The position numbers were made by a program, and so were the translations under genes. From Sanderia malayensis (Eukaryota > Cnidaria > Scyphozoa > Semaeostomeae > Pelagiidae), in assembly GCA_013076295.1 (NCBI GenBank), contig RQOL01000877.1, forward strand, positions 1 through 64,000: a stretch of 64,000 nt of DNA, read 5' to 3'. The notes beneath the pieces were generated by a model. That model saw only the letters and a program-made list of their open reading frames with translations. It was not told the origin of the DNA and made no database searches. Below are positions 1 through 60,854 of this stretch, piece after piece; positions within the stretch are counted from its first letter, which is position 1, and each line of letters starts with the position of its first letter.

Positions 1-830
1 GATCTGAAAGACTATTTTAAAACAAATCACCTCTGCTCTGCTGGCACGCTTTTATGTGTTAAAATTTACAAATCTAATATATATATTCTGTGATATCACG
101 TGACGACGCACTTTCCTTGCCAAAAACAATAGATTCGACCCGAAACAATTGGTCGAACGCCCGAAAACAACGGGCCGAAACGGCGAACCGTGTAATCACA
201 AAGGCTTTTTTGTATGTGGGTATATAGCAATGAAATTCACACTGAGTGTTTCGTTTATTAATTTAACCAGGGTAATGGATTTTGTTTTTCGATTTTCTCC
301 TGAAATTTTTAATTATTCCACTAATTATTCTGCTAATTGTGCTATCACGAAAAAACTACGGTTTACGGTGGCGAAACTTCCAAATTCGCGTTGCAAACTC
401 CATTTTCGAGCACAGTATTCGCTGTTCATGTGACCTGTTTCGCCTTTTGCTGTAATTTGATTGGCTCTTTCGCGACTTCACGTGAACAGTCACGCGTTTC
501 TCGTTATCATGCAAATTTGCCCTCGGGTTGAACAGCAGGTACTTTTGGAGAAGACGCGTGTTTTTGTTTTCAACACAAAGGATAACTGGACGCCTTTCAA
601 AGTGTTTCACGACCTGAATTATCTTTGTAAAGACTTGCTAATTGTTTGAGAGACCTCTGGAAAATTACAGGAGACAATTGAGAACACAGGTGATAGCTTT
701 TTTTTGTTTTTCGAGTAAGATAGTTATAGCTTAGGTAGTAGGCGACTGCCATTGTTGCTTCGGCATGCTTGCGACGCTTAGGCCTAATGTAAACAAGCCC
801 AAAGTTTTAATAAACAAATTATGATAAGGG

Positions 831-1935
831 GTTATCAGGCGAGCGAAGCGAGCCAAACTGTTGCAAGAGGAGTAGGCAGAGGCATGAGCGAAGCGAATGC
901 AGCGCACGAAGTGCGCCCTATCAGTCAATGCTTCTTGATAATAGATAGACAGGCGAGCGCAGCGAGTTAACCCATTGTACGTGGGGTTGAAAGAGGCATG
1001 AGCGAAGCGAATGCAGCGCACGAAGTGCGCCCTAACAGTCAATGTTTCTTGATAATAGATACACAGGCGAGCGCAGCGAGCTAACCCATTGTACGTGGGG
1101 TTGAAAGAGGCATGAGCGAAGCGAATGCAGCGCACGAAGTGCGCCCTAACAGTCAATGTTTCTTGATAATAGATAGACAGGCGAGCGCAGCGAGCTAACC
1201 CATTGTACGTGGGGTCGAAAGAGGCATGAGCGAAGCGAATGCAGCGCACGAAGTGCGCCCTAACAGTCAATGTTTCTTGATAATAGATAGACAGGCGAGC
1301 GCAGCGAGCTAACCCATTGTACGTGGCGTTGAAAGAGGCATGAGCGAAGCGAATGCAGCGCACGAAGTGCGCCCTAACAGTCAATGTTTCTTGATAATAG
1401 ATAGACAGGCGAGCGCAGCGAGTTAACCCATTGTACGCGGGGTTGAAAGAGGCATGAGCGAAGCGAATGCAGCGCACGAAGTGCGCCCTATCAGTCAATG
1501 TTTCTTGATAATAGATAGACAGGCGAGCGCAGCGAGCTAACCCATTGTACGTGGGGTTAAAAGGGGTATGAGGGTAAGCGAATGCAGCGCACGAAGTGCG
1601 CCAATCACAGGCTAGTGCAGCGAGCTAACCCATTGTACGTGGGGTTGAAAGGGGCATGAGCGTAGGCGAATGGAGCGCACGAAGTACGCCCTAACAGTCA
1701 ATGTTTCTTGATAATAGATAGACAGGCGAGCGCAGCGAGCTAACCCATTGTACGTGGGGTTGAAAGGGGCATGAGCGTAGGCGAATGCAACGCACGAAGT
1801 GCGCCCTATCAGTCTATGTTTCTTGATAATAGATAGACAGGCAAGCGCAGCGAGCTAACCCATTGTACGTGGGGTTGAAAGGATCATGAGCGTAAGGGAA
1901 TGCAGCACACGAAGTGCGCCAACCAGATTACTGGT
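831..1935 (+). repeat. 114-bp minisatellite array A inside Helitron copy 1
   Basis: Near-identical units recur every 114 bp (the motif CGAAGTGCGC sits at 1021, 1135 and 1249), with shorter, more diverged units towards 1930. Each unit holds the hairpin GCGCAC-GAA-GTGCGC and purine-rich GAGCGAAGCGAATGC / GGCGAGCGCAGCGAGC motifs. Because 114 is divisible by three, one minus-strand frame stays open through the array (731-1498). That is a repeat artefact, not a gene. Confidence 0.9.
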
Positions 1936-2206
1936 TGGCGCACTTTCAACACAAAGGATAACTGGACGCCTTTCAAAGTGTTTCACGACCTGAATTATCT
2001 TTGTAAAGACTTGCTAATTGTTTGAGAGACCTCTGGAAAATTACAGGAGACAATTGAGAACACAGGTGATAGCTTTTTTTTGTTTTTCGAGTAAGATAGT
2101 TATAGCTTAGGTAGTAGGCGACTGCCATTGTTGCTTCGGCAAGCTTGCGACGCTTAGGCCTAATGTAAACAAGCCCAAAGTTTTAATAAACAAATTATGA
2201 TAAGGG

Positions 2207-3757
2207 GTTATCAGGCGAGCGAAGCGAGCCAAACTGTTGCAAGAGGAGTAGGCAGAGGCATGAGCGAAGCGAATGCAGCGCACGAAGTGCGCCCTATCAG
2301 TCAATGCTTCTTGATAATAGATAGACAGGCGAGCGCAGCGAGTTAACCCATTGTACGTGGGGTTGAAAGAGGCATGAGCGAAGCGAATGCAGCGCACGAA
2401 GTGCGCCCTAACAGTCAATGTTTCTTGATAATAGATACACAGGCGAGCGCAGCGAGCTAACCCATTGTACGTGGGGTTGAAAGAGGCATGAGCGAAGCGA
2501 ATGCAGCGCACGAAGTGCGCCCTAACAGTCAATGTTTCTTGATAATAGATAGACCGGCGAGCGCAGCGAACTAACCCATTGTACGTGGGGTCGAAAGAGG
2601 CATGAGCGAAGCGAATGCAGCGCACGAAGTGCGCCCTAACAGTCAATGTTTCTTGATAATAGATAGACAGGCGAGCGCAGCGAGCTAACCCATTGTACGT
2701 GGCGTTGAAAGAGGCATGAGCGAAGCGAATGCAGCGCACGAAGTGCGCCCTAAACAGTCAATGTTCTTGATAATAGATAGACAGGCGAGCGCAGCGAGTT
2801 AACCATTGTACGCGGGGTTGAAAGAGGCATGAGCGAAGCGAATGCAGCGCACGAAGTGCGCCCTATCAGTCAATGTTTCTTGATAATAGATAGACAGGCG
2901 AGCGCAGCGAGCTAACCCATTGTACGTGGGGTCGAAAGAGGCATGAGCGAAGCGAGTGCAGCGCAAGAAGTGCGCCCTAACAGTCAATGTTTCTTGATAA
3001 TAGATAGACAGGCGAGCGCAGCGAGCTAACCCATTGTACGTGGCGTTGAAAGAGGCATGAGCGAAGCGAATGCAGCGCACGAAGTGCGCCCTAACAGTCA
3101 ATGTTTCTTGATAATAGATAGACAGGCGAGCGCAGCGAGTTAACCCATTGTACGCGGGGTTGAAAGAGGCATGAGCGAAGCGAATGCAGCGCACGAAGTG
3201 CGCCCTATCAGTCAATGTTTCTTGATAATAGATAGACAGGCGAGCGCAGCGAGCTAACCCATTGTACGTGGGGTTAAAAGGGGTATGGGGGTAAGCGAAT
3301 GCAGCGCACGAAGTGCGCCAATCACAGGCTAGTGCAGCGAGCTAACCCATTGTACGTGGGGTTGAAAGGGACATGAGCGTAGGCGAATGGAGCGCACGAA
3401 GTACGCCCTAACAGTCAATGTTTCTTGATAATAGATAGACAGGCGAGCGCAGCGAGCTAACCCATTGTACGTGGGGTTGAAAGGGGCATGAGCGTAGGCG
3501 AATGCAACGCACGAAGTGCGCCCTATCAGTCTATGTTTCTTGATAATAGATAGACAGGCAAGCGCAGCGAGCTAACCCATTGTACGTGGGGTTGAAAGGA
3601 TCATGAGCGTAAGGGAATGCAGCACACGAAGTGCGCCCTATCAGTCTATGTTTCTGGATAATAGATAGACAGGCAAGCGCAGCGAGCTAACCCATTGTAT
3701 GTGGGGTTGAAAGGAGCATGAGCGTAAGCGAATGCAGCGCACGAAGTGCGCCAACCA
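2207..3757 (+). repeat. 114-bp minisatellite array B inside Helitron copy 1
   Basis: This array has the same 114-bp unit as array A, in the second copy of the internal duplication. The duplication offset is 1376 bp: CAACACAAAGG lies at 571 and 1947, and TATAGCTTAGG at 725 and 2101. The array is longer than A and has small indels (2753-2810) that break the spurious minus-strand frame. The distal units (3240-3757) repeat the order of diverged units seen at 1500-1930, so unit blocks were copied together. Confidence 0.88.
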
Positions 3758-20401: not shown

Positions 20402-21278
20402 AACCTGCTAAAAACCTACTCTAAAAGCATCTATACATACTATACCTACTATAACAACATACTACACCAATTATACCTACTATAAAAACATACTATACCT
20501 ACCATACAAACATACAAATACTTGTAGAACGTTTAAATCAGGAAAGGCGTGCAAATAGCGCCTGAAAAATTCATAACTTTGACTTTGTTTTCATTGCCCA
20601 AAGCTTGCCAAAGCGACGCCTACTACAAAAACCACAACAATGTCAATTTTCAACTTAAAATACAAAAACAAAGCTATCACCTGTGTTTTATATTGTTTCC
20701 TGCAACTCTCCTGGGGTCTTTGAAACAAATAGCAGCTTTTGCAAAGATAATTCAGGTGGTAAAACACTTTGAAAGGCGTCCTTTGTGTGCAAAACAAAAA
20801 CACACGTCTTCTCCAAAAATACCTGCTGCAAGCTTGGGCAAATAGCGAAAAAACGATCGACAATGGACGTGGGTTGCGAAAAGAGCCAATGAACTTGCAG
20901 GAAAAGGCAAAATGGGTCACACAAACAGCAAATACTTTCTTCGAAAATGGAGCTCCCTGCGCGAATTTGCCAGTTTCGCCAGCTCAAACCATCGTGTTTT
21001 CGTGATAGCACAATTAGCAAAGTAATTAATGGAAATAATTTAAAAATTCAGGAGAAAATCGAAAAACAAAATCCACTACCCTGGTTAAATTAATAAAGTA
21101 AACATTCAGTGTGAATTTCATTGCCATATACCCACATATAAAAAGGCCTTTGTGATCACACGGTTTGCCATTTCGGCCCACTGCTTTGGGGCATTTGATC
21201 TACTGTTTCGGGTCGAATCAATTGTTTTTGGAAGGGAAAGCGTGTCATCACGTGATTCCGTAGAATATATATATTAGA
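19966..21278 (-). mobile_element. Non-autonomous Helitron, copy 2 (inverted, split by microsatellite)
   Basis: The 5' end lies at 21278 (TCTAATATATATATTC on the minus strand, preceded by A). The single-copy 5' part runs to about 20590. The minisatellite part (three diverged units, GCGCTGCATTCGCTTACGCTCATGC-type, 20261-19966) lies beyond a CATA microsatellite. The 3' CTRR terminus is not recognisable, so the copy is truncated or decayed there. Confidence 0.7.
20262..20400 (+). repeat. (CATA)n / (CTACATAC)n microsatellite
   Basis: An uninterrupted CATA tetranucleotide run with internal CTACATAC variants begins exactly where the Helitron minisatellite stops (GCTCATGCCC|ATACATAC). Repeat-driven Tyr/His/Thr frames are not genes. 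Confidence 0.95.
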
Positions 21279-26169: not shown

Positions 26170-27822
26170 TTATAGTTCATCATCATCTTCGTCTGCAAAG
26201 TGTTGAATTAGTGCTTTAGCAGTTTCTTTTGCTCCTCTTGTTTGCTTGATGACTACACTGTCTGGTTGGAATCCTTTAGCCTTCGGATTATGCTTCCATG
26301 TTTCCGTCTTTAGTTCCAATGGATATATATGCTGCAATGGTCTTTCCATTATACCTTTTCCTGCCCGTAGTTTTACTCCTCTTACGATTCCATCTTTCCC
26401 CTGGATTAGAGATGTCACTTTTCCAAGTTTCCAGAATCCTCGATTTTTCTCGTCTCCCTTGATAATTACCACTTCTCCCTCTTTTACTGTCGAATTGGCC
26501 TTTTTCTGATGAGTGTGTCTCTCTCTAATGGCTTTCACGTACTCAGATGTCCAGCGGTTCCACATTTGGTCTTTACACTTTTGTAGGTACTTCTCCCGTT
26601 TAATGTAGGCCAACCTTTCATCTTCAACATCAAGATCGATTTCTGGAGTTCTGATGTTCCCTCCAAAAATAAGCATATTTGGAGTTAGTCGCTGAGAATC
26701 GAACTCTTCTCCTTGGTATGTCAATGGCCGGTTATTCATTGATATCTCAATGTCAACAAGAACATCTTCCAACTCCTTGAATGTTAGCAGTGATTTTCCA
26801 ATGGTTCGGTTGAGCGTACGCTTCATGATTCCAATGAGTCTTTCAAAAAATCCGCCCCACCATGCTGCAAGGCTGAGATTGAATTGCCAAACAATTTGAC
26901 TCTTACCCAAGTAGTTTGTCAAATCTGTGTTCTTCTTCAATTTCTTGATCCATTTTCCAGTCGCCACAAATGTCTTACCATTATCACTCACTAGCCTTTC
27001 TGGTGTTCCTCTTTTTGCAATAAACAACTTCAGACTGTGCTGGAACTCTTCTGCTGTTAAATTTCAATGACACTGCTCTAGTTGTAGTGCACCTGTATAA
27101 GGCAACATAACACTTACTCTGCAGTCTCTTGTTACGTCCATAGGTCATTGGTCCCGCGAAGTCTACACCAGTTACTTGAAACGGTCTTCCTGGATTTGTC
27201 GGAATTCTGGTAAGTTTGCTTGTGCTGGGGCTTGAAGTGGAATGGATTTATATTTCTGACATCCTGGGCAGCTATGAATGATGGACTTTGCAAGTCTTCT
27301 CAGCTTTGGAAACCACCAATGATTCCTTGTTCTTGCCATGGTTGAATTGACTCCCCCATGCAAGGTCTGAATGTGCTCATGCATGGTCAACTTCTTTGCA
27401 AACAGATCTGAATCTGGTAGATAGATAGGGTAATCTCCTTCAACTCTTCCATAGCATCTCAGCATTCCACCTTCATCCTTCTTCAAATTCAACTTCTCCT
27501 TCTGTTGCTTGAATCTAACTTCTGTTTTTGCGTCTGATTGAACCTTCTTGACCCAATGCATCTTTGGTAATTTAACTTCAGTTGTTGATAGAGGTCCAAT
27601 GTGTCATTTTCCTTGTCTGTAGTTTAAGAAAAATCGATTAACCCATGCTTTTACTCTGATGGTCTTCCAGTAAGAGTATTTCTCCATCAATGTCCAAAGT
27701 GTATCTTCCTTGGGTTTCTCAATGATTTTCATCATTACCTCTTTGATGAGTTTTGCCTCCTCACTGCTTTCTGTTGATGGCTTCAGAACAATGTTTTCTG
27801 GCCATTGTGAAGGGTTGCTCAA
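26170..27822 (-). pseudogene. BEL/Pao integrase
   Basis: This is assembled from same-frame pieces 27822-27604, 27561-27172 and 27027-26170. LYLPDSDLFAKKL-like sequence and LHGGVNSTMARTRNHWW with SCPGCQKYK form the HHCC zinc-binding region. The first catalytic Asp sits in VDFAGP (about 27160, in a shifted frame). The second is in LVSDNGKTFVA. The Glu is in WWGGFFERLIG. A basic C-terminal domain follows (KKANSTVKEGEVVIIKG). Nonsense codons lie at 27604 and 27172, with a frameshift between 27170 and 27030. The catalytic triad residues are each present but not in one frame. Confidence 0.85.
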
Positions 27823-34708: not shown

Positions 34709-36349
34709 TCAGAGTTTTCCTGGTCCACCACATTCACTGAGGTTACGAACTAGTACCCGATCATTTTCTTGTAACACACTTGATGGTATTCGACGATCGT
34801 AATTATTTTTTCCTCTTGCCTGTGAGACTTGTGAACGGTCCGATGCAATTTGATACGCCTCTTTCATTGCCGCTCTCCATCTTTCTACATATCCTGAGTG
34901 ATCCGCTCTTTTGATTGAACTCCGTGATCGTCCTGTTTTAAAAATCAAATCCACTGGTAGTCTTGGGTCACGTCCAAATAGCAGGAAAAATGGCGAATAT
35001 CCTGTACTAGAATGTTTGGTACAGTTGTATGCATGGGTAACTTTGTTTAGGTAGTCAGCCCAACGTGACTTCTTACTTTCAGGGAGTGTTCTCAACATGC
35101 CAAGCAACGTTTGGTTGAAGCGCTCGACCTGGCCATTGCCTTGTGGGTGGTATGGTGTGGTCCGTGAATGGCCCACACCACATAGTGCTTCTAGATGTTC
35201 CATCAAGTCATTCTCAAACTCCCCTCCCTGGTCATGGTGTAACCGACCGGGGAAGCCAAATCTAAGAATAAAATCGTTATAGATCTTATTAGCAACTGTC
35301 TTTGCTGATTTGTTCTTGGTGGCATATGTTTGTGCGAACCTGGTGAAATGGTCCATAATGAATAAAACATATTCATAGCCTCCAGCACTTTTCTCGAGGT
35401 GTAAGAAATCTATCGAAACAAGCTCAAACGGTTGAGTAGTCACTATACTCTGCAGTGGTGCTTTTCCTTGAATATGAGGCTTTCTTTGTTTGATACAGGA
35501 ACAACGTTTGGCAATAAAAGTCTCAATGTCTCTTCGCATGTAGGGCCAGTAAAAACGTTGGACTGCTAACTGTATAACTCGATCACTGCTCCAGTGGCCC
35601 ATTTCGCTATGCAATTCTTGGTATATCACTTGGTGAAATTTCTTTGGGAGCACAATCTGATTGTTTTCACTAGTCTTTCGACAGAGAAGTCCATCTTCTG
35701 AGATATATAATTTCTCCCAGTCACGCATCAATATTCTCAGTCCGGGGGCTGCATGTTTGATTACATCCTTCGATGGTTTGTCTCCCTTTGCTCTAAATCG
35801 TAAAGCAGGACCAATAGCAGGGTCCGACTGTTGGGCTTGGAGGACATCGTTTGAATTAATTGCCTTTAACGGGGGACCATTCGAATCAGCTGGTTGTTGA
35901 TCCATATCAAAGGCTTCGGCATTAGTAGGTAAGCACATTACCCAGGGTACCATGTCGTTGTGCCGTGCTGACATGGCTGCAGCTGTAGCTTGAAAAATAT
36001 CAGGCGACACTTCATTCGTACATGATTTCATTATGTCCTCTATGTTATTTGGCATTCGCGAAAGAACGTCAGCATCAACATTTATCTTTCCTGGTCTGTA
36101 CTTCACTGTGAATCGAAAATCAGCAAGCTCAGATACCCGGCGGTGTCCCGTGGCATTCAGCTTTGCAGTTGATAGCACGTACGTAAGGGGGTTATTTTCT
36201 GTAAGGACAGTAAAAGATGGTGCATAAAACAAAAAATCACGGAAGTGATCACACACCGCCCATTTCAGTGCTAAAAATTCTAGTTTACCACTATGCAGGT
36301 GATAATTCTTTTCGGCAGTCGTCAAAGTTCTTGAAGCAAAGCTAGGCAC
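34709..36349 (-). CDS. Gypsy RNase H and integrase
   Basis: The frame enters in RNase H ([20 protein letters not shown] with the Glu; [14 protein letters not shown] with an Asp). It then covers the integrase: HHCC zinc domain ([14 protein letters not shown]-x2-C as CSCI with CIK), first Asp in [12 protein letters not shown], second in [12 protein letters not shown] and Glu in [32 protein letters not shown] and a basic C-terminal region follow. All three catalytic residues are in one open frame. A TGA at 34709 interrupts just before the C-terminal tail (HWEKEVHRVVKRL), which continues in frame to 33887. Confidence 0.9.
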
Positions 36350-37665
36350 CTAGGCCTGATGCACTAGCATCTGTGTGCAGAACAAATGGTAGATTGAAGT
36401 CCGGGTAAGCTAACAACGGTGGAGATGACAGACAGTCAATGAGCTTATTCAAGGCTTGCTGATGATGGCTTTGCCAATCAATTGGTGTTCTAGATGGAAT
36501 AGTCCCTTGATTCTTGTTTTGACGATAACTCCTGAAATGCTGCTTTGGACTAGAAGCTTTATCCTGTTGTGGTTGTTTCTGCAATAGTTCAAATAAAGGT
36601 TTTGCAGTCTGAGAAAAATTCGGAATATATTTCCTGTAATAATTGAGGAAGCCAATGATGCGTCGCACATCACCCACAGTACTTGGTTTACTATCTCGCA
36701 GCTGATGAATCGCTTGAAGGTTTGACGTATCCATGTGGTAGCCTTGTTCAGAAATAATATGTCCAAGGTACTTTACCTGACGCTTAAAGAGTTCGCATTT
36801 TTTTGGCTTGAGTTTTAGTCCCTTACTTCGTAATCTTTTTAACGCGCTCGACAAATGCTGGATGTGTGACTGAAAATCCGGGCTAAAAACGGTCAGGTTG
36901 TCAAGGTATGGGATGCAGAACTCATCGCGAATTCCTTCCAGACACTGCTCCATGAACCTCTGAAAGCCCCCTGGTGCATTGGTAAGGCCAAAGGGAATCC
37001 TCACCCATTCATACAAGCCCCAGGGAGTTATGAATGCAGTTAGGTGTCGAGACTCTTCCTGGACAAAGCCCTGGTGGTAAGCCTTGCCCTGGTCAAGTAA
37101 GGAAAACCAACTGCTTCCACCAAGACTTTGAAGTTTTTCGTCTACGCGTGGTAATGGATGACGATCTTGTATAGTGCGCGCATTCAGCATACGATAATCC
37201 ACGCACAGCCGCAAGCTTCCGTCTTTTTTTCTGACACACACGACTGGACTGGAGTAATTAGAGCGTGATTGAATAATCCAAACTTTATTCAACAAATCCT
37301 CTACATACTGCTTAACTTCGACATACAACGGTTTTGGTATTGCTGTATAGGTCTTTTGAACTGGTGTCTGATAGCTTAATTGGTAACTGATGTTCTTCCG
37401 CACAACCAATATCATGTTCAGATGACGAAAAAGACTCTGCATTTAACAGCAGCATATTTTCAGCTATTTTACGCTGTTCACAATCCAGACTATTCAAATC
37501 AAACTGTTCTAGAAAGTAAGGAGGGATGTTCTGCATGGTCGCTTCGGAAAGATTCATGGATGGCTGTTGAATGTCAGTTTTTATGTGGTTGCTCTCAACC
37601 AGAGGTGTGTTGTTCAGTTTGACATCCAGTGGAATAACTGATTTTACCGGTTCTAATCGACCCAA
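36342..37665 (-). pseudogene. Gypsy reverse transcriptase and start of RNase H
   Basis: 37665-37312 is the linker in the protease frame (NIPPYFLEQFDLNSLD). After a frameshift near 37400, 37442-36342 gives the [37 protein letters not shown] (first Asp), [15 protein letters not shown] and [11 protein letters not shown]. The second active-site Asp is Asn (YLDN). The thumb ([16 protein letters not shown]) and RNase H start ([12 protein letters not shown]) follow. There it stops, with about a dozen codons missing before the next frame. The YLDN change would abolish polymerisation if real. Confidence 0.87.
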
Positions 37666-52054: not shown

Positions 52055-53082
52055 TCTAATATTACTATTCAGCGATGTCACGTGATGATGCACTTTCCTC
52101 ACCAAAAACAATAGATGCTACCCAAAACAATAGGTCGAGCGCAAAAAAACAATGGGCCGAAACGGCGAACCGTGGAATCACAAAGGCATTTTTGTATGTG
52201 GATATATGGCGATGTTTTTCAGACTGAATGTTTAGTTTCCTAATTTAACCAGGGTAATGGGTCTTTTTTCGATTTTCTCCGAAATTATTGAATTATTCCA
52301 TTAATTATCCTTCTAACTGTGCTATCACAAAAAAACGACGGTTTACCCTGGCAAAACTTCCAAATTTGTGTTGCAAACTCCATTTTTGAGAAGGTATTCG
52401 CTGTTCATGTGACCTGTTTTGCCTTTTGCTGTAATTTGATTCGGTCTTTCGCGACTTCACGTGAACAGTCACGCAATTTTCGTTATCATTCAAATTTGCC
52501 CTTGGGTTGAACAGCAGGTACTTTTGGAGAAGATGCGTGTTTTTGTTTCACACACAAAGGATAAGTGGATGCCTTTCAAAGTGTTTTACGACTTGAATTA
52601 TTTTTGTAAAGACTTGCTAATTCTTTGAGAGATCTCTGGAAAATTGCAGGAGACAATTGAGAGCACAGGTGACAGCTTTTTCTGTTTTTTTGAGTGGGTT
52701 AGTTGAACCGTGTAACCACAAAGGCTTTTTTGTATGTGGATATATGGCAATGAAATTCACACTGAATGTTTACTTGAATAATTTAACCAGGTTAATGGAT
52801 TTTTTTTTCGATTTTCTTCTGAAATTTTGAATTATTCCACTAATTATTCTGCAAATTGTGCTATCACGAAAAAACTACGGTGGTTTACGCTGGCGAAACT
52901 TCCAAATTCGCGTCCCGAACTCCATTTTCGAAAAGAATATTCGCTGTTCATGTGACCCGTTTTGCCTTTTGCTTTAATTTGATTGGCTCTTTCACGACTC
53001 CACGTGAACAGTCACAAGTATTTCGTTATCATGCGAATTTGCCATCGGGTTGAACAACAGGTACTTTTGGAGAAGAGGCGTG

Positions 53083-53345
53083 TATGGTGGCCCATCGTTA
53101 TCACAGTAATGTTCTTCTGTAGAAAGTTATATCCGAAAAAAATATGTAATTTTTTTTCAAAATAAGCTTTTTTTAAATTTTTTATTGGGAAATAAAATAA
53201 ATAAATAAATCTTTTTTTAATTTTTGAAAAAATTAAATATTTTTTTAATTTTTAAAATCATTTTTAAAAAAATAATTTTTTTTGCATGTGGCCCATCGTC
53301 CCATCGTTATCATTATCAAAATAGAAACGAGGCCAAACCTCCGTT
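53083..53345 (+). repeat. Left terminal and subterminal inverted repeat of transposon A
   Basis: The outer ~50 bp and an inner block (53286-53345) are repeated inverted at the right end; A/T-rich spacer lies between. The inner block contains GTGGCCCATCG again, a direct repeat of the terminus, probably a transposase-binding site array. It also precedes the transposase start by about 90 bp and may hold its promoter. Confidence 0.85.
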
Positions 53346-53436
53346 GCGCAACCGGCCTAAATTTGTAACAATTTGTATATTTTGACTGATTTGATCCATT
53401 GACATAAGTTGAGTTCAGTGTCCACCACTTTATATC

Positions 53437-54627
53437 ATGGAATGGAAGGACGACAAGGGGCTGTGTGAAGATCTCAATAAATACGTCCGTCGAAATTTAA
53501 AGAGATCCGAGATTTTGGATTTTGTCATGCGGGATTATAGCTGCTATAAATGGAGCCTTCCTACATTGGACAGACGTCTCCGACATTTTGACATTAGATA
53601 TATTGACTTAGCGACTTCCATTGACGAAGTGAAAGCAGCAGTGCAAGAAGAACTGACTGGACCAGGAAGACTGCTTGGCTACAGGGCTATGAATCAGAAA
53701 CTCAGAGAAGAGCATAATATCAAGGTTCCCAGACATTTAGTTCAACATGTTGTAGCAGATCTCGATCCTAATTCAGTAGAAGCTCGCAGTCTTAAAAAAG
53801 GGAAGAAGAGAGGTACACAACCATTCACATCAAAAGGTCCACTTTGGGTTGTCTCAGTAGATGGCCATGACAAACTCTGTGGCTTTCAAAATTGGACATT
53901 CCCTCTGGGTGTTTATGGGTTTATTGATACATTTTCCCGCAAAGTCCTTTCCTTGTCAGTGGTATACTCAAATTCAGATCCACTTGTCATAGGGAAATTG
54001 TATTTTGACCTGTTGCATGCAACACAGATGTTACCAAGGTTTCTGCGTATGGACAAGGGGACAGAGACAGGCACAATGGCAACAATGCATAGTTACTTGA
54101 TGTCAAAAGAGGACATATTTGATGATCCCACAGATGCTATAGCATATGGCCCATCTACCACTAATAAAATAGAAAGGTGGTGGAAAGATCTCCATGAACG
54201 CCTTGAGAAGTTCTTCAAGATTCAGTTGAAAGAATTATTGGATAACAGGGACTATAACCCACATGATGCTAGAGACAGGCAAATCCTTGCATACTTATAT
54301 ATACCTATTATACAGAGAGAATGCAATATCTTTGTGAATATGTGGAACAACCACAGAATTAGGGCACAAAGGAACTTACAACTTCCATCAGCCATTCCCA
54401 ACCACATGTTTTCCTTTCCTGAGAAATATGGGGTAGAGAACATGGGAATCAACACAACTTCTGAACAACTCAGAGAAGTGGCAGAGCTATCTGAAGTGTT
54501 GAATTCACCCACTGAGTTCATGGATGAAGACTTGAAAGTTTTGTGTGAAAGAAGGATTGCAGACCCCACAAAAATTGAAAGCAAGGATGCCAAAAACTGT
54601 TTTTTATTTTTGAAACACAACTTGTAA
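53437..54627 (+). CDS. DDE (DD39E) transposase of the IS3EU-like transposon A
   Basis: Intact 396-residue frame from ATG 53437. Residues 1-110 are a helical DNA-binding region (MEWKDDKGLCEDLNKYV; MNQKLREEHNIKVPRHLV resembles a helix-turn-helix of IS3/integrase type). The integrase-like core has WVVSVDGHDKL (D142), FLRMDKGTETG (D206) and TTNKIERWWKDLH (E246); I count 39 residues between D206 and E246. The distal ERWW...NIFVNMWNNHRIR and PNHMFSFPEKYG blocks follow, then an acidic tail. The enzyme should cut and join the TATGG ends. It shares segments with the broken copy B at 32676-42027, but unlike that copy it needs no introns. No damage is visible, so this element could be active or recently so. 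Confidence 0.85.
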   Translation: MEWKDDKGLCEDLNKYVRRNLKRSEILDFVMRDYSCYKWSLPTLDRRLRHFDIRYIDLATSIDEVKAAVQEELTGPGRLLGYRAMNQKLREEHNIKVPRHLVQHVVADLDPNSVEARSLKKGKKRGTQPFTSKGPLWVVSVDGHDKLCGFQNWTFPLGVYGFIDTFSRKVLSLSVVYSNSDPLVIGKLYFDLLHATQMLPRFLRMDKGTETGTMATMHSYLMSKEDIFDDPTDAIAYGPSTTNKIERWWKDLHERLEKFFKIQLKELLDNRDYNPHDARDRQILAYLYIPIIQRECNIFVNMWNNHRIRAQRNLQLPSAIPNHMFSFPEKYGVENMGINTTSEQLREVAELSEVLNSPTEFMDEDLKVLCERRIADPTKIESKDAKNCFLFLKHNL

Positions 54628-54883
54628 GAATGATTGCCAAGAATAATGCTGTGAAAGATAAGATTTGTCAACCTAGTGAGATCTAGTCAACCTAAGTTAA
54701 AATTACTCTTGTAACATTTAAAAATTTTAACACAACCAAATGAAACAAAACTGAACAAAACTGTCCTCATAAGTTATTTATTCATTTCCTAAAAAATCGA
54801 AATTAAGACATTAAAAAGCAAGGAGCCCATTTATTTGGCACACGAGTAGCATTTCTGAGTCAATGTTTATAACTGTTCTTATA

Positions 54884-56308
54884 TCAAATTGACTGCAAAT
54901 CTTGCAGACCCATCATTTTGCAAAAATTGTTGCATATATGTTGTCTACAAAATGTGTCAATTGCATACAATGAAAGATTGCCAGCACAGAAATTGACTTC
55001 TCCATCTTCTATTAAAACTCTTGTGGCTATTTCTGGATCACAAAGATGGTACCCCACACCTTGTATATCCATGAGCATCATTTGCTGATCTGTACTTTCA
55101 AAGGAGAAGTGCACTAGACATTCAACTTTCTCTTTCAATACCATCCCACTTTCATCAACAGGAGTTTCTGATAGTTGACCAGTGTTATTCATGTATTTCT
55201 CAAACATTCCTGGAATGAACTGCTCAACTGTAACAGGAGTGGCATCAATTGTTGAGAAGTACACGTTGCTGTAATCAAAGCAAGACCCAAAGCATGATGG
55301 TGCTTTACGAATAAAATTATGGCATATGCTTCTTGCCACAGCATGCAATTGTACCTGTTTCCTGGTGTGCTGGGTGACAGTCAACTTCAGTTCTTCTGTA
55401 ATCTGTGATACTCTGTCTTCTTTTGCTTCTTTTATGACCCATTTTTTGGAGTTGCCAGTTGTAGTTGCCATGTATGCATTGCGAAATCCTCCTGCGGCAA
55501 ACTGTTTCGTCTCCTTCTGGAAATCCATAGGTTTGTTTATTTCCCATTTCTTTTCACATACATTATAGTTTTCAAGAACCAGGGAGAGAGAAGTGACTTC
55601 TGGGGCATCAACCAATTTACGTGCCTTCAAAAGATCAGCGACAGAAACTGTCTTTGGAACAAGAGGAGATGGGGCCTTTGGCAACACAGAACTTGCAGGG
55701 AATGACAAGGGCCGTTGTTTGGATATGGTTTCATGCCCCCCATTTTCATGTTTTTCACTATGTTCTCCTGTTTTCTGTGCCTTTCTTTTTGCTGGGTCAA
55801 GAAACCGAACAAAGTAGACCTTTTTTCCAACAATTTGCTCTGTAAGAAAACACGAAGGCCCTCTGTCGCTCAGTAGAATGTCACAAGAGCCAGCTGGTAG
55901 CTCATAGTACCTTTCACATGCCTCTTTAATGTTTTCAATTGTGATTTCATGGTAATCAGCAAAGTCAACAAAGTCTCTGGTGTCAAGAGGCTCGAACCTT
56001 TTTGAACGGTTGGGCTCAGAACTCATTCTTTGCACCATGATCGTTGCTGGAGAAGACAACTTCTTCTTTGAAGACCCCTCTCTTCTTTTTTCAGAACATT
56101 TTTTTTCGAAATTCTCCCACATTCTCCGCTTTGACATCCTGTTTGTGTTCTGTGATGTGACTTGATGCGTTGAGTTTCCAGCAGGTTTAGTATTTTTGAA
56201 ATGACATGAAGGTTTGGGTTTGATGTGAAACTGAAAAACGTGGTCAACACGCAACGGAGGTTTGGCCTCGTTTCTATTTTGATAATGATAACGATGGGCC
56301 ACATGCAA
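54884..56308 (-). CDS. Alpha-kinase (MHCK/EF2K family) carried by transposon A
   Basis: Open frame of 474 residues; a likelier start is Met58 (56137, MSKRRMWENFEKK), because codons 1-20 are TIR. Residues about 60-200 are basic or unrecognised (CDILLSDRGPSCFLTEQ, KKVYFVRFLDP). The C-terminal alpha-kinase domain has a nucleotide loop FAAGGFRNAYMA (271-281), ATP-binding Lys in WVIKEAK (K293), IPGMFEKYMNNTG (365-377) and catalytic LMDIQGVG (D414) with DPEIAT. GNLSL (443) replaces the usual GNLG. Zinc ligands H400, H457, C459 and C463 (HICNNFC) are present. Alpha-kinases phosphorylate Ser/Thr, e.g. EF-2 or myosin tails; the substrate here is unknown. AATAAA on the minus strand lies about 50 bp past the stop. 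It converges on the transposase gene 256 bp away. Confidence 0.88.
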   Translation of the reverse strand: MHVAHRYHYQNRNEAKPPLRVDHVFQFHIKPKPSCHFKNTKPAGNSTHQVTSQNTNRMSKRRMWENFEKKCSEKRREGSSKKKLSSPATIMVQRMSSEPNRSKRFEPLDTRDFVDFADYHEITIENIKEACERYYELPAGSCDILLSDRGPSCFLTEQIVGKKVYFVRFLDPAKRKAQKTGEHSEKHENGGHETISKQRPLSFPASSVLPKAPSPLVPKTVSVADLLKARKLVDAPEVTSLSLVLENYNVCEKKWEINKPMDFQKETKQFAAGGFRNAYMATTTGNSKKWVIKEAKEDRVSQITEELKLTVTQHTRKQVQLHAVARSICHNFIRKAPSCFGSCFDYSNVYFSTIDATPVTVEQFIPGMFEKYMNNTGQLSETPVDESGMVLKEKVECLVHFSFESTDQQMMLMDIQGVGYHLCDPEIATRVLIEDGEVNFCAGNLSLYAIDTFCRQHICNNFCKMMGLQDLQSI

Positions 56309-56503
56309 AAAATTTTACTTTTTTTCAAAATGATTTTAAAAATTAAATAAACATTTAAAAAAAATGTTTCAATGTTTCAAAAAAAAAGAAATAAAATTCT
56401 GAATAAAAAGTTTAGAAAACTTATTTTGAAAAAAAAATTTAAATTCTTTTCAGATATACTTTTCTACATAAGAAAATTACTGTGATAACGATGGGCCACC
56501 ATA
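56243..56503 (-). repeat. Right terminal and subterminal inverted repeat of transposon A
   Basis: Mirror of 53083-53345. The long kinase reading frame starts inside it (56308), so the first ~20 codons of that frame are TIR sequence. The kinase promoter probably lies here. Confidence 0.85.
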
Positions 56504-57132
56504 GGCGTGTTTTTGTTTTGCACACCAAGGATAACTCGTCTGTGGGGTTGAATGGGGCATGAGGGGGAGCGAATGCAGCGCACGAAGTGCGCTAACTACA
56601 TTAAGTTTTTTCACTTGCCCCCCTCCGAGAGGCAAGCGTACGCAAGCGCCCCTGGCTAATCTGCAATATTCTGTTACGTTTGTGTTTTCATACGTTTCAT
56701 ACATACGTTTGTGTTTTATGTAATGGAATTCCAAAGCAATTTTCAGCCTCTGGCATCAAGTGAAGCAACCGGAGGAGAGCAACAGTTAGGACAATCAGCA
56801 ACAACAGTAGGTATAGTCTTTCTATTTTCCCAACAGAGAGCGTTATGTTAATATAAATAAAATAACGAAGGAGAATTACGCTCTTTAAATCACGGTTTTC
56901 AGGTTTCTTTTCTTTATGGAAGTTTTGCGGTTCAGCTAAAGAGAGTTATTTAAATGAAAAAAGAGAATAAACTTGCGTTGATGTTCTGATGATTTCACGC
57001 CTCAATAAAATGGTCATAAATTTACAACCGTTTTTTAATTTGCTGTAATATCAGGAGAATGCTAACTATTGTTATTTTATTTTTATTTTTGTTGTTATAT
57101 TGCAGATGAAAGAATGAAAGATAAAAACAGAA

Positions 57133-59497: not shown

Positions 59498-60135
59498 TCA
59501 AGACATTGATCCATATAAACACCAAGGTTTCTTGCAATCTTGCATCCGTATAAATCTAATGCATTTACCATCGTTCAAAGTCCCATGTATTTTGATGTTT
59601 GAACGTACTGACTCGGGGCCTAGAAGTAAGATTTTTGTTTTTGTTTTATTTAATTTAGGGAAATTACTGTTCATCCAGTTTGATAATACAGAGAGGCAAT
59701 TTTCAATTCCTGTTGTTAAGATATTAACTTGAAAAATGGGATGGAATGATTTATAGAGTTGGTGGTCATCTGCGAAGCCATTCATTTCAAAGCCAGTTTG
59801 TTCTATTAACGCATACAGTGGCTGCATGTAGATGTTAAAAAGTATGGGACCTAGAACAGACCCTTGAGGCACCCCATAGTTGAGTGTCGTACTTTCTGAA
59901 TACTGACCCGACATTAAAACTTGCTGAGTACGACCTTTCAAGTATGAAACAAACCATTTTGAAACAGTGCCACCAATACCGAGATTATTTTCAAGCCTTT
60001 TAGGAAGTATGTTCTGATCTACTGTATCAAATGCTGCACTTAAATCCAACAGGAGTAATGCAGTAGCACATTTATTATCAAACGCTTTGGAAATGCCGTC
60101 AATTGTGTTCAATAGTAGCATTTCAGTAGAGTGAC
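59498..60135 (-). pseudogene. LINE reverse transcriptase core
   Basis: The longest continuous part of the LINE RT. It starts right at the Helitron border with HSTEM and runs through the palm. Present are the first catalytic Asp (LLDLSAAFD), a GVPQGSVLGP loop and FADDHQ, with both active-site Asp residues. WMNSNFPKLNKTKTKILLLG follows. It then runs into a frame change near 59560 (VYGSM in the ORF; the true continuation is IARNLGVYMDQCLDFE-like, not fully legible). Family-typical motifs leave little doubt about its identity. Confidence 0.85.
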
Positions 60136-60854
60136 TAGCCGGGGGCGCTCGCGTTCGCTCGCTTCCGGAGGGGGGCAAGTGAAACAAGCTTAATGTGGTT
60201 GGTGCACTTCGTGCGCTGCATTCGCCTATGCTCATGCCCCTTTCAACCCCACGTACCATGGGTTAGCTCGCTGCGCTCGCCTGTGGTTGACACACTTCGT
60301 GTGCTGCATTCGCTTACGCTCATGCCTCTGCCTACTCCTTTCACAACAGCTTGGCTCGCTTCGCTCGTCTGATAATCCTTTATCATAATTTGTTTATTAA
60401 AATTTTGGCCTTGTTTACATTAGGCCTAAGCATTGCAACTGTTCTAGTGAAGTCGCAAAAGAGCCAATCAACTTGCAGCAAAAGGCGAAACGGGTCACGT
60501 GAACATCGAATACGCGGTTCGAAAATAGAGTTCGCGCCGCGAATTTGGAATTTTCGTCACTGTAAACTGTAGTTTTTTCGTGATAGCACAATTAGCAGAA
60601 TAATTAATGGAATAATTCAAAAGAACTTTAAAAAATGAAACGAAAAATAGATAACCTTGATCTACTTAATAATTGGCACTTTCCATTTGAAATTTAGCGC
60701 AATAAATGTACAAACAAGAAAGCCTTTTTTATTACACGGTTCGCCGTTTCGGCCCATTGTTTTGATGCATTTGACCTATTGTTTCAGGTCGAATCTATTG
60801 TTTTTGGCAAGAAAGTGCGTCATCATGTGACCTCCGCAGAATATATATATTAGA
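60136..60854 (-). mobile_element. Non-autonomous Helitron, copy 7 (719 bp, inside the LINE RT)
   Basis: On the minus strand it starts TCTAATATATATATTC after A (60855) and ends CCCCCGGCTAG before T (60135). Removing 60136-60854 joins TACAAGAAGAA to TCACTCTACTGAA. That restores the RT codons Y-K-K-N-H-S-T-E without loss or gain. This is a direct empty-site test of the element borders. It has the single-copy 5' part and about two array units. Confidence 0.93.

Follow-up and report, generated by a model that had tools for sequence, protein, structure and literature searches.

A two-gene IS3EU-type DNA transposon of Sanderia malayensis and the alpha-kinase that may serve as its effector

DNA transposons of the IS3EU/GingerRoot type have been described as having TA..TA ends, a 6-bp target site duplication (TSD) and a DDE transposase with no HHCC domain upstream of its core (main text of PMC10045372, 2023). 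In the portion of a 2025 account that is drawn on here (PMC12730594), the IS3EU elements of rust fungi combine 6-bp TSDs with TAYGG..CCRTA ends, and all TET-carrying IS3EU families have a TET/JBP gene between oppositely oriented transposase and alpha-kinase genes. Here, a 64,000-nt stretch of the scyphozoan Sanderia malayensis (assembly GCA_013076295.1, contig RQOL01000877.1; hereafter the window) was analysed, in which a transposon of 3421 nt (53083-56503) encloses a transposase gene and an alpha-kinase gene. Based on its ends, its TSD, the transposase core and the published kinase arrangement, the element is assigned to the IS3EU (rva_4) type. An earlier reading of the sequence alone (the original prediction) held that no known transposon family carries an alpha-kinase, which the fungal families in print contradict, as far as that account is drawn on (PMC12730594). 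No publication on animal IS3EU kinases, and none on HECT genes in IS3EU elements, was found in an open-access library, a small part of whose IS3EU papers was covered. Within the reach of these searches, both the two-gene form in an animal and a HECT-carrying sister clade are new. We consider it rather probable that this is a two-gene IS3EU (rva_4) DNA transposon whose kinase serves as the element's effector.

The terminal inverted repeats (TIRs) of the window element (TATGGTGGCCCATCG) are identical over the outermost 24 nt of the two ends (24/24), TA..TA termini are present (TATGGTGG..CCACCATA), and the flanking copies of GGCGTG agree at 6/6 positions. The long TIRs share 79% identity over their 266 and 254 nt and agree at 100% of positions over a block of 49 nt (53300-53348 and 56250-56298). 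The element went into a host repeat that is present several times in the window, and as three empty copies are unbroken at the insertion point, it follows that the whole unit, including the kinase, was inserted. The window element is one inserted unit with TIRs and a TSD; its movement by cut and paste is assumed. The coordinates, the TIRs and the exact 6-bp duplication of the original prediction were borne out, as was its description of the kinase as cargo lying wholly between the TIRs.

A search of a 184-Mb assembly of the same genome for the alpha-kinase produced 97 matches, which were merged to 91 loci. The sequence was read at the best 20 matches (6-9.7 kb each) and at four hand-picked loci (6-6.5 kb), and then at a further 11 hand-picked loci with approximately 3.4 kb downstream, where L037 is the stretch after L030. 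A convergent transposase accompanied the kinase at 22 of the first 24 loci, 21 of them identified by script and L010, which also holds a second, distant transposase, by inspection. By inspection it was also present at 10 of the next 11, giving a total of 32/35. Among the first 24 loci, 14 have both ends together with an exact 6-bp TSD; L025 and L027 resemble one insertion assembled twice. At L030 (C323), an open 499-aa kinase frame is followed by a retrotransposon pol frame and a transposase remnant lies beyond it, in L037; this is an interrupted or rearranged element.

Searching the same genome with the transposase gave at least 113 matches (105 of 538 candidates were scored), merged to at least 101 loci, and the counts of neighbouring genes that follow refer to the matches listed. 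A convergent kinase match within 8 kb was found at 45 of the 61 transposase loci with at least 38% identity and a kinase in any other arrangement at none of the 61, while about 0.002 kinase neighbours per transposase locus are expected by chance. Counted from the kinases, 45/91 loci had a convergent transposase match. Among transposase loci of 29-34% identity, only 1/40 had a convergent kinase, and there the adjoining L032 has its own transposase nearer. The association with a kinase at 38% identity or more compared with lower identity has a Fisher p of 6e-14, a descriptive value as the 38% line was drawn afterwards. The kinase is a standing part of the element and no accidental passenger. Coordinates of the features are given in Table 1.

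Table 1. Position of the element's genes, ends and target sites in the window, and of the related sister-clade genes
Feature	Position	Strand	Remarks
DD39E transposase, 396 aa	53437..54627	+	Pfam rva_4, E 5.2e-19; D142, D206, E246
Alpha-kinase gene, 417 aa from conserved ATG	54884..56137	-	Pfam E 1.9e-29; tail to tail with transposase
TSD, left copy GGCGTG	53077..53082	.	empty paralogous sites also support
TSD, right copy GGCGTG	56504..56509	.	
Left long TIR, 266 nt	53083..53348	+	starts TATGGTGGCCCATCGTTATCACAG
Right long TIR, 254 nt	56250..56503	-	
Host repeat paralogue without element (empty site)	185..587	+	uninterrupted at insertion point
Host repeat paralogue without element (empty site)	52167..52564	+	uninterrupted at insertion point
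Host repeat paralogue without element (empty site), more diverged	20779..21165	-	uninterrupted at insertion point
Sister-clade rva_4 transposase and convergent HECT-like open reading frame (ORF)	L046:1376-3755 (C675); also L047 (C758)		

Long TIRs were present in 11/11 elements examined. Taking the first aligned codon as the gene start in nine elements, 17/18 starts lie 21-146 nt inside the inner TIR edge, the exception being the transposase of L011 at 1188 nt. As the long TIRs put nearly the same sequence upstream of each gene, both may well be expressed from matching promoters.

DNA searches with the window element detected one further long copy, C303, which is 96% identical over element positions 1218-3421 and contains the kinase and the end of the transposase in convergent orientation. 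The two copies differ by 2.1% in the kinase and by 1.6-1.9% in non-coding parts, as expected for a copy decaying without constraint, and from an internal methionine the C303 kinase agrees by eye with public protein P0001, which points to a public gene set from this or a very closely related species. No kinase-less copy of the window family was found in the same genome at the sensitivity of the DNA search. It had been proposed that other copies lacking the kinase would mark it as an accidental passenger; the C303 copy has it, in broken form, and among the matches listed most of the related loci have a convergent kinase match (45/61).

One family, comprising eight loci (L012-L019), jumped very recently. 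Its 436-aa kinases are 0-2 nt apart, and four copies have intact TSDs that are all different. Along the element, 2-5 nt separate the six copies that retain both ends; the end on the transposase side is missing from L012 and L018. L013-L019 all lack the same 411 bp of the transposase core, and with them the region of the first two catalytic aspartates; L012 retains this region. Transposase-defective, kinase-intact copies have presumably spread recently, moved in trans. A mosaic origin of L012 was considered and dropped: its apparent differences from complete sisters number 29-32, and of the 31 from L015, 26 are in the first 46 bases, where the left end is lost, and one is in the kinase.

The distances between kinases and those between transposases are correlated across 13 elements of this genome (Mantel r 0.88, p 0.0001), and with six outside pairs added, which were matched on equal-length sequence records so that their pairing is assumed, r is 0.81. 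Both trees hold a nine-element clade, whose transposase matches are in pieces, and its 3+6 split, and both contain the pairs L023/L032, L014/L021, L025/L031, L009/L010 and window/L011 (the last weak in the transposase tree). The kinase and transposase trees, as built from these sequences, thus largely agree, with one supported conflict. Kinase pN/pS was 0.34-0.45 among the window element, L009, L010 and L011 and 0.35-0.64 among eight others, and transposase pN/pS was 0.24-0.45 among the first four. Synonymous sites are saturated except in the pair L009/L010, so that the deep ratios overstate dN/dS; in all compared pairs, pN/pS was below 1 for kinase and transposase, in line with the selection that the original prediction looked for in both genes. 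In L009/L010, more of the changes are synonymous than expected under neutrality, both in the kinase (11/29 changes, p 0.03) and in the transposase (10/24, p 0.02). Non-synonymous change has been restrained relative to synonymous change in both genes.

The alpha-kinase of the window is, judged by its sequence, complete, with the predicted catalytic and zinc residues intact. It consists of an N-terminal domain (residues ~30-115), a linker and the alpha-kinase domain (~180-411), and its identity is supported by profile and by fold. The structural model has a mean predicted local distance difference test score (pLDDT) of 85, with block means of 89-98 in the N-terminal domain and low confidence in the linker. 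The kinase was aligned with 44 sequences chosen from 87 matches: K236, D357, Q359 and G360 were present in 45/45 and D367 in 44/45, with one gap, and the zinc ligands H343, H400, C402 and C406 in 44, 40, 41 and 39 of 45, respectively, the exceptions being one N and otherwise gaps. The window kinase itself has the ATP lysine, the catalytic aspartate and all zinc ligands, as had been predicted, these residues being what we take to be the catalytic and zinc-binding ones. The frame is open from 56314 (a 474-aa reading), and had been thought to start inside the TIR. As alignments to other loci begin mostly at residues 51-64 of this reading (at 37 for L020) and the methionine at 56137 is conserved as start in 90% or more of the 45 kinases, that placement is very likely wrong, and the conserved start lies 113 nt inside the inner TIR edge.

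TRPM7 ChaK, MHCK-A and eEF2K are all structurally near the window kinase, with ~18-27% identity. It differs from them in having a different conserved N-terminal domain, and it shows no channel, WD40 or eEF2K-type C-terminal part, which are features of those three proteins. In eEF2K, C-terminal helical repeats are found together with a calmodulin-binding segment. The window kinase ends 11 residues past the last zinc cysteine, which would leave no room for such repeats, and Pfam shows the kinase domain only. With this short tail, and with all three kinases near, the suggestion that it acts by eEF2-type phosphorylation is unsupported. For the N-terminal domain, the Pfam search (16 sequences, E up to 5) returned 13 families beside the alpha-kinase model, none of which was convincing. 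A ubiquitin-like fold is hinted at by Foldseek matches to RAS/RAF (E 1.5e-3) and aPKC-Par6 (E 4.0e-3) and by a strand-strand-helix-strand-strand order; it is not claimed, as VIA-align barely covered that part. A kinase scan of viral contigs returned a single pattern match and no relative, and a viral fold library gave weak matches only, which, where named, were mostly protein kinases and phosphotransferases.

The prediction of a DD39E transposase held, both by the rva_4 profile and by conservation of the catalytic residues. In an alignment of 34 sequences (that of the window and 33 chosen from 120 listed), D142 and D206 are invariant and E246 is at least 90% conserved, with 39 residues between D206 and E246. 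Using the predicted structure (mean pLDDT 86), Foldseek matched TnsB, PFV and other retroviral integrases and Mu transposase at E 1e-5 to 1e-4, with low TM-scores, mostly 0.2-0.3 across the whole chain. The N-terminus is helical in the model and Pfam finds no zinc domain, so the protein is predicted to be without an HHCC domain. Neither the transposase nor the kinase was matched in an NCBIfam search.

Relatives were also found in other species. For the kinase these were 87 matches in one search and the best 120 of 140 in another, and for the transposase the best 120 of 298; those named among the matches listed include Paramuricea, Dendronephthya, Stylophora, Actinostola, Acropora, Exaiptasia, Clytia and Ciona. 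Seven of 81 kinase rows share an equal-length record with one of the 118 transposase rows listed, five of them on records longer than 50 kb, and the second kinase search adds at least four such pairs by eye (153774, 3860692, 670825 and 2842). Chance is an unlikely source of the long-record pairings; the Ciona pairing is one 12.3-Mb sequence and says little on the distance between the genes. Several cnidarian and tunicate genes among these close relatives are annotated as TRPM6-like, eEF2K, MHCK-D-like or ALPK1-like, and they may be transposon genes themselves.

A second gene convergent to the transposase was also found in a sister clade, represented by L046 and L047, whose transposases are ~32% identical to that of the window. 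Like the window element, these have an rva_4 transposase, a TACGGTGGCCCATAA left end (TACGGTGGCCCATAACTGTC in L046) and a convergent second gene; unlike it, they have a HECT-like gene in place of the kinase, and of their ends the left one was read, so that a position between TIRs is presumptive for this gene. The end of the ORF matched the HECT domain at E 5e-8 in L046 and at 1e-3, below the curated cut-off, in the cut L047, and its segment SACAKEITFP resembles what we take to be the HECT active site. A sequence search of the PDB with the HECT-like protein P0261 found no relative at E up to 0.1. Among the matches listed, PF00632 was matched within 6 kb at 10/40 sister-clade loci, L046-type ORF matches adjoin 11/40, and a HECT-like match by either search was present at 18/40, in every case convergent. 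At transposase rows of the kinase clade, an L046-type ORF match within 6 kb was found at 0/73, and PF00632 at 1/73, in tandem and not convergent. Within 8 kb of the 40 sister-clade loci, no kinase belonging to their transposases was found among the matches listed, and the transposase of L046 and the second one at L010 branch outside the kinase clade in the tree. The HECT-like gene appears to occupy the kinase's convergent slot.

The constancy of this slot, the restrained change in both genes and the different modifying enzymes in related elements together favour a kinase that acts as an effector for the element. The conserved N-terminal domain would direct the kinase to a host protein, and phosphorylation of that protein would weaken silencing or favour integration; for an effector with a host target reached in this way we see the chances as about evenly balanced. 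A host target is somewhat likelier than the transposase, as no kinase seems to be needed in the sister clade. The HECT-like gene there and TET/JBP in fungi suggest a slot for enzymes that modify host control, and we read it as a place for protein-modifying effectors, acting against the host or tuning the transposase. More tentatively, and with a likelihood that we put a little short of even, rva_4/IS3EU elements may share a constant position for interchangeable effectors, lying tail to tail with the transposase and between the long TIRs. Different lineages would place there different enzymes acting on host proteins or chromatin: an alpha-kinase or, in the sister clade, a HECT-type ubiquitin ligase, with a TET/JBP dioxygenase added in fungi.

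Several observations weigh against a kinase that is a constant, functional partner in these elements. No adjoining transposase was found at L028, L030 and L044 of the 35 kinase loci read, and among the matches listed 16/61 related transposase loci were without a kinase match within 8 kb and 46/91 kinase loci without a transposase match, many entries among the transposase matches being fragments. Although both ends are present at L014 and L019, their TSD copies agree at only 3/6 and 0/6 positions; the end motif occurs in a single orientation at L012, L018, L020, L026 and L031, and none was seen at L024, L028 and L030 among the 24 loci checked. Small deletions and a stop disrupt the C303 kinase, and in 8/8 copies of the young family the last zinc cysteine is replaced (C406 to F) with the kinase frame open. 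Seven of these eight copies lack the transposase core but retain a whole kinase, a pattern that agrees equally well with a selfish effector and with hitch-hiking. The supported tree conflict concerns L009/L010: the transposase tree separates them from the window element, L011 and four outside pairs, and the kinase tree groups them with the window element, L011 and two outside pairs. Unless the outside pairs are mismatched, this points to an exchange of partners.

The main alternative is that the kinase acts on its own transposase, or on the transposase-DNA complex, as a built-in regulator and not on host defence. One element holds both genes in convergent orientation, and they are largely inherited together, as partners would be, and the long TIRs would permit coordinate expression. 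However, a related transposase, with a HECT-like gene in the slot, seems not to need the kinase, copies with a deleted transposase keep it, and the L009/L010 conflict points to partner exchange, so that we regard this regulation as unlikely, though well ahead of the readings that follow. A captured host alpha-kinase that hitch-hikes without benefit to the element would explain the host-like fold, and the recent copies are too similar to reveal selection. Such a passenger is already disfavoured, and is very improbable, given the single arrangement at most related loci among the matches listed, the agreement of the trees, the restrained non-synonymous change, the paired matches in other animal datasets (via equal-length records) and the fungal families that appear in the portion of PMC12730594 used here. 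There is a similarly slim chance that the kinase is a host gene mobilised by the transposon and of benefit to the organism: several relatives are annotated as host genes (TRPM6-like, eEF2K, MHCK-D-like), but the copies sit within TIRs with TSDs and the C303 kinase is already broken, as expected of an element gene. Of the original prediction, the kinase as cargo and as a standing part of the element remains; the claim of a family without precedent and, very probably, the start inside the TIR do not, and the eEF2-type idea is unsupported.

Elsewhere in the window, a large tandem array with a unit of ~114 nt is present at 836-3752, and related pieces adjoin the element and occur at other positions. 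Retrotransposon pol pieces (reverse transcriptase, RNase H and integrase) lie at 34709-37442 and 59498-60262, and the ORF at 26170-27063 has a DUF5641 domain (E 1.3e-21), which is commonly met in retroelement polyproteins. An Rfam scan of the 64-kb window gave no match.

If the kinase is an effector, this compact two-gene element gives direct access to the question of which proteins must be modified by a eukaryotic DNA transposon for it to move, and since kinase and HECT-like gene alternate in one slot, swaps could put the question to the test. If the slot is as proposed, these would be eukaryotic DNA transposons that carry counter-defence effectors of their own, much as viruses do. The window element resembles IS3EU/GingerRoot in its TA..TA ends, its 6-bp TSD and its DDE transposase without an HHCC domain, and the word kinase does not occur in the main text of that account, the part considered here (PMC10045372). 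With the fungal TET/JBP-carrying IS3EU elements, as described in the portion of PMC12730594 used, it shares the 6-bp TSD, the TAYGG..CCRTA ends and the opposed transposase and alpha-kinase genes. Compared by description with those fungal elements, it differs, apart from the co-inheritance and restrained change measured for it here, in having no third gene between the two and in residing in an animal genome.

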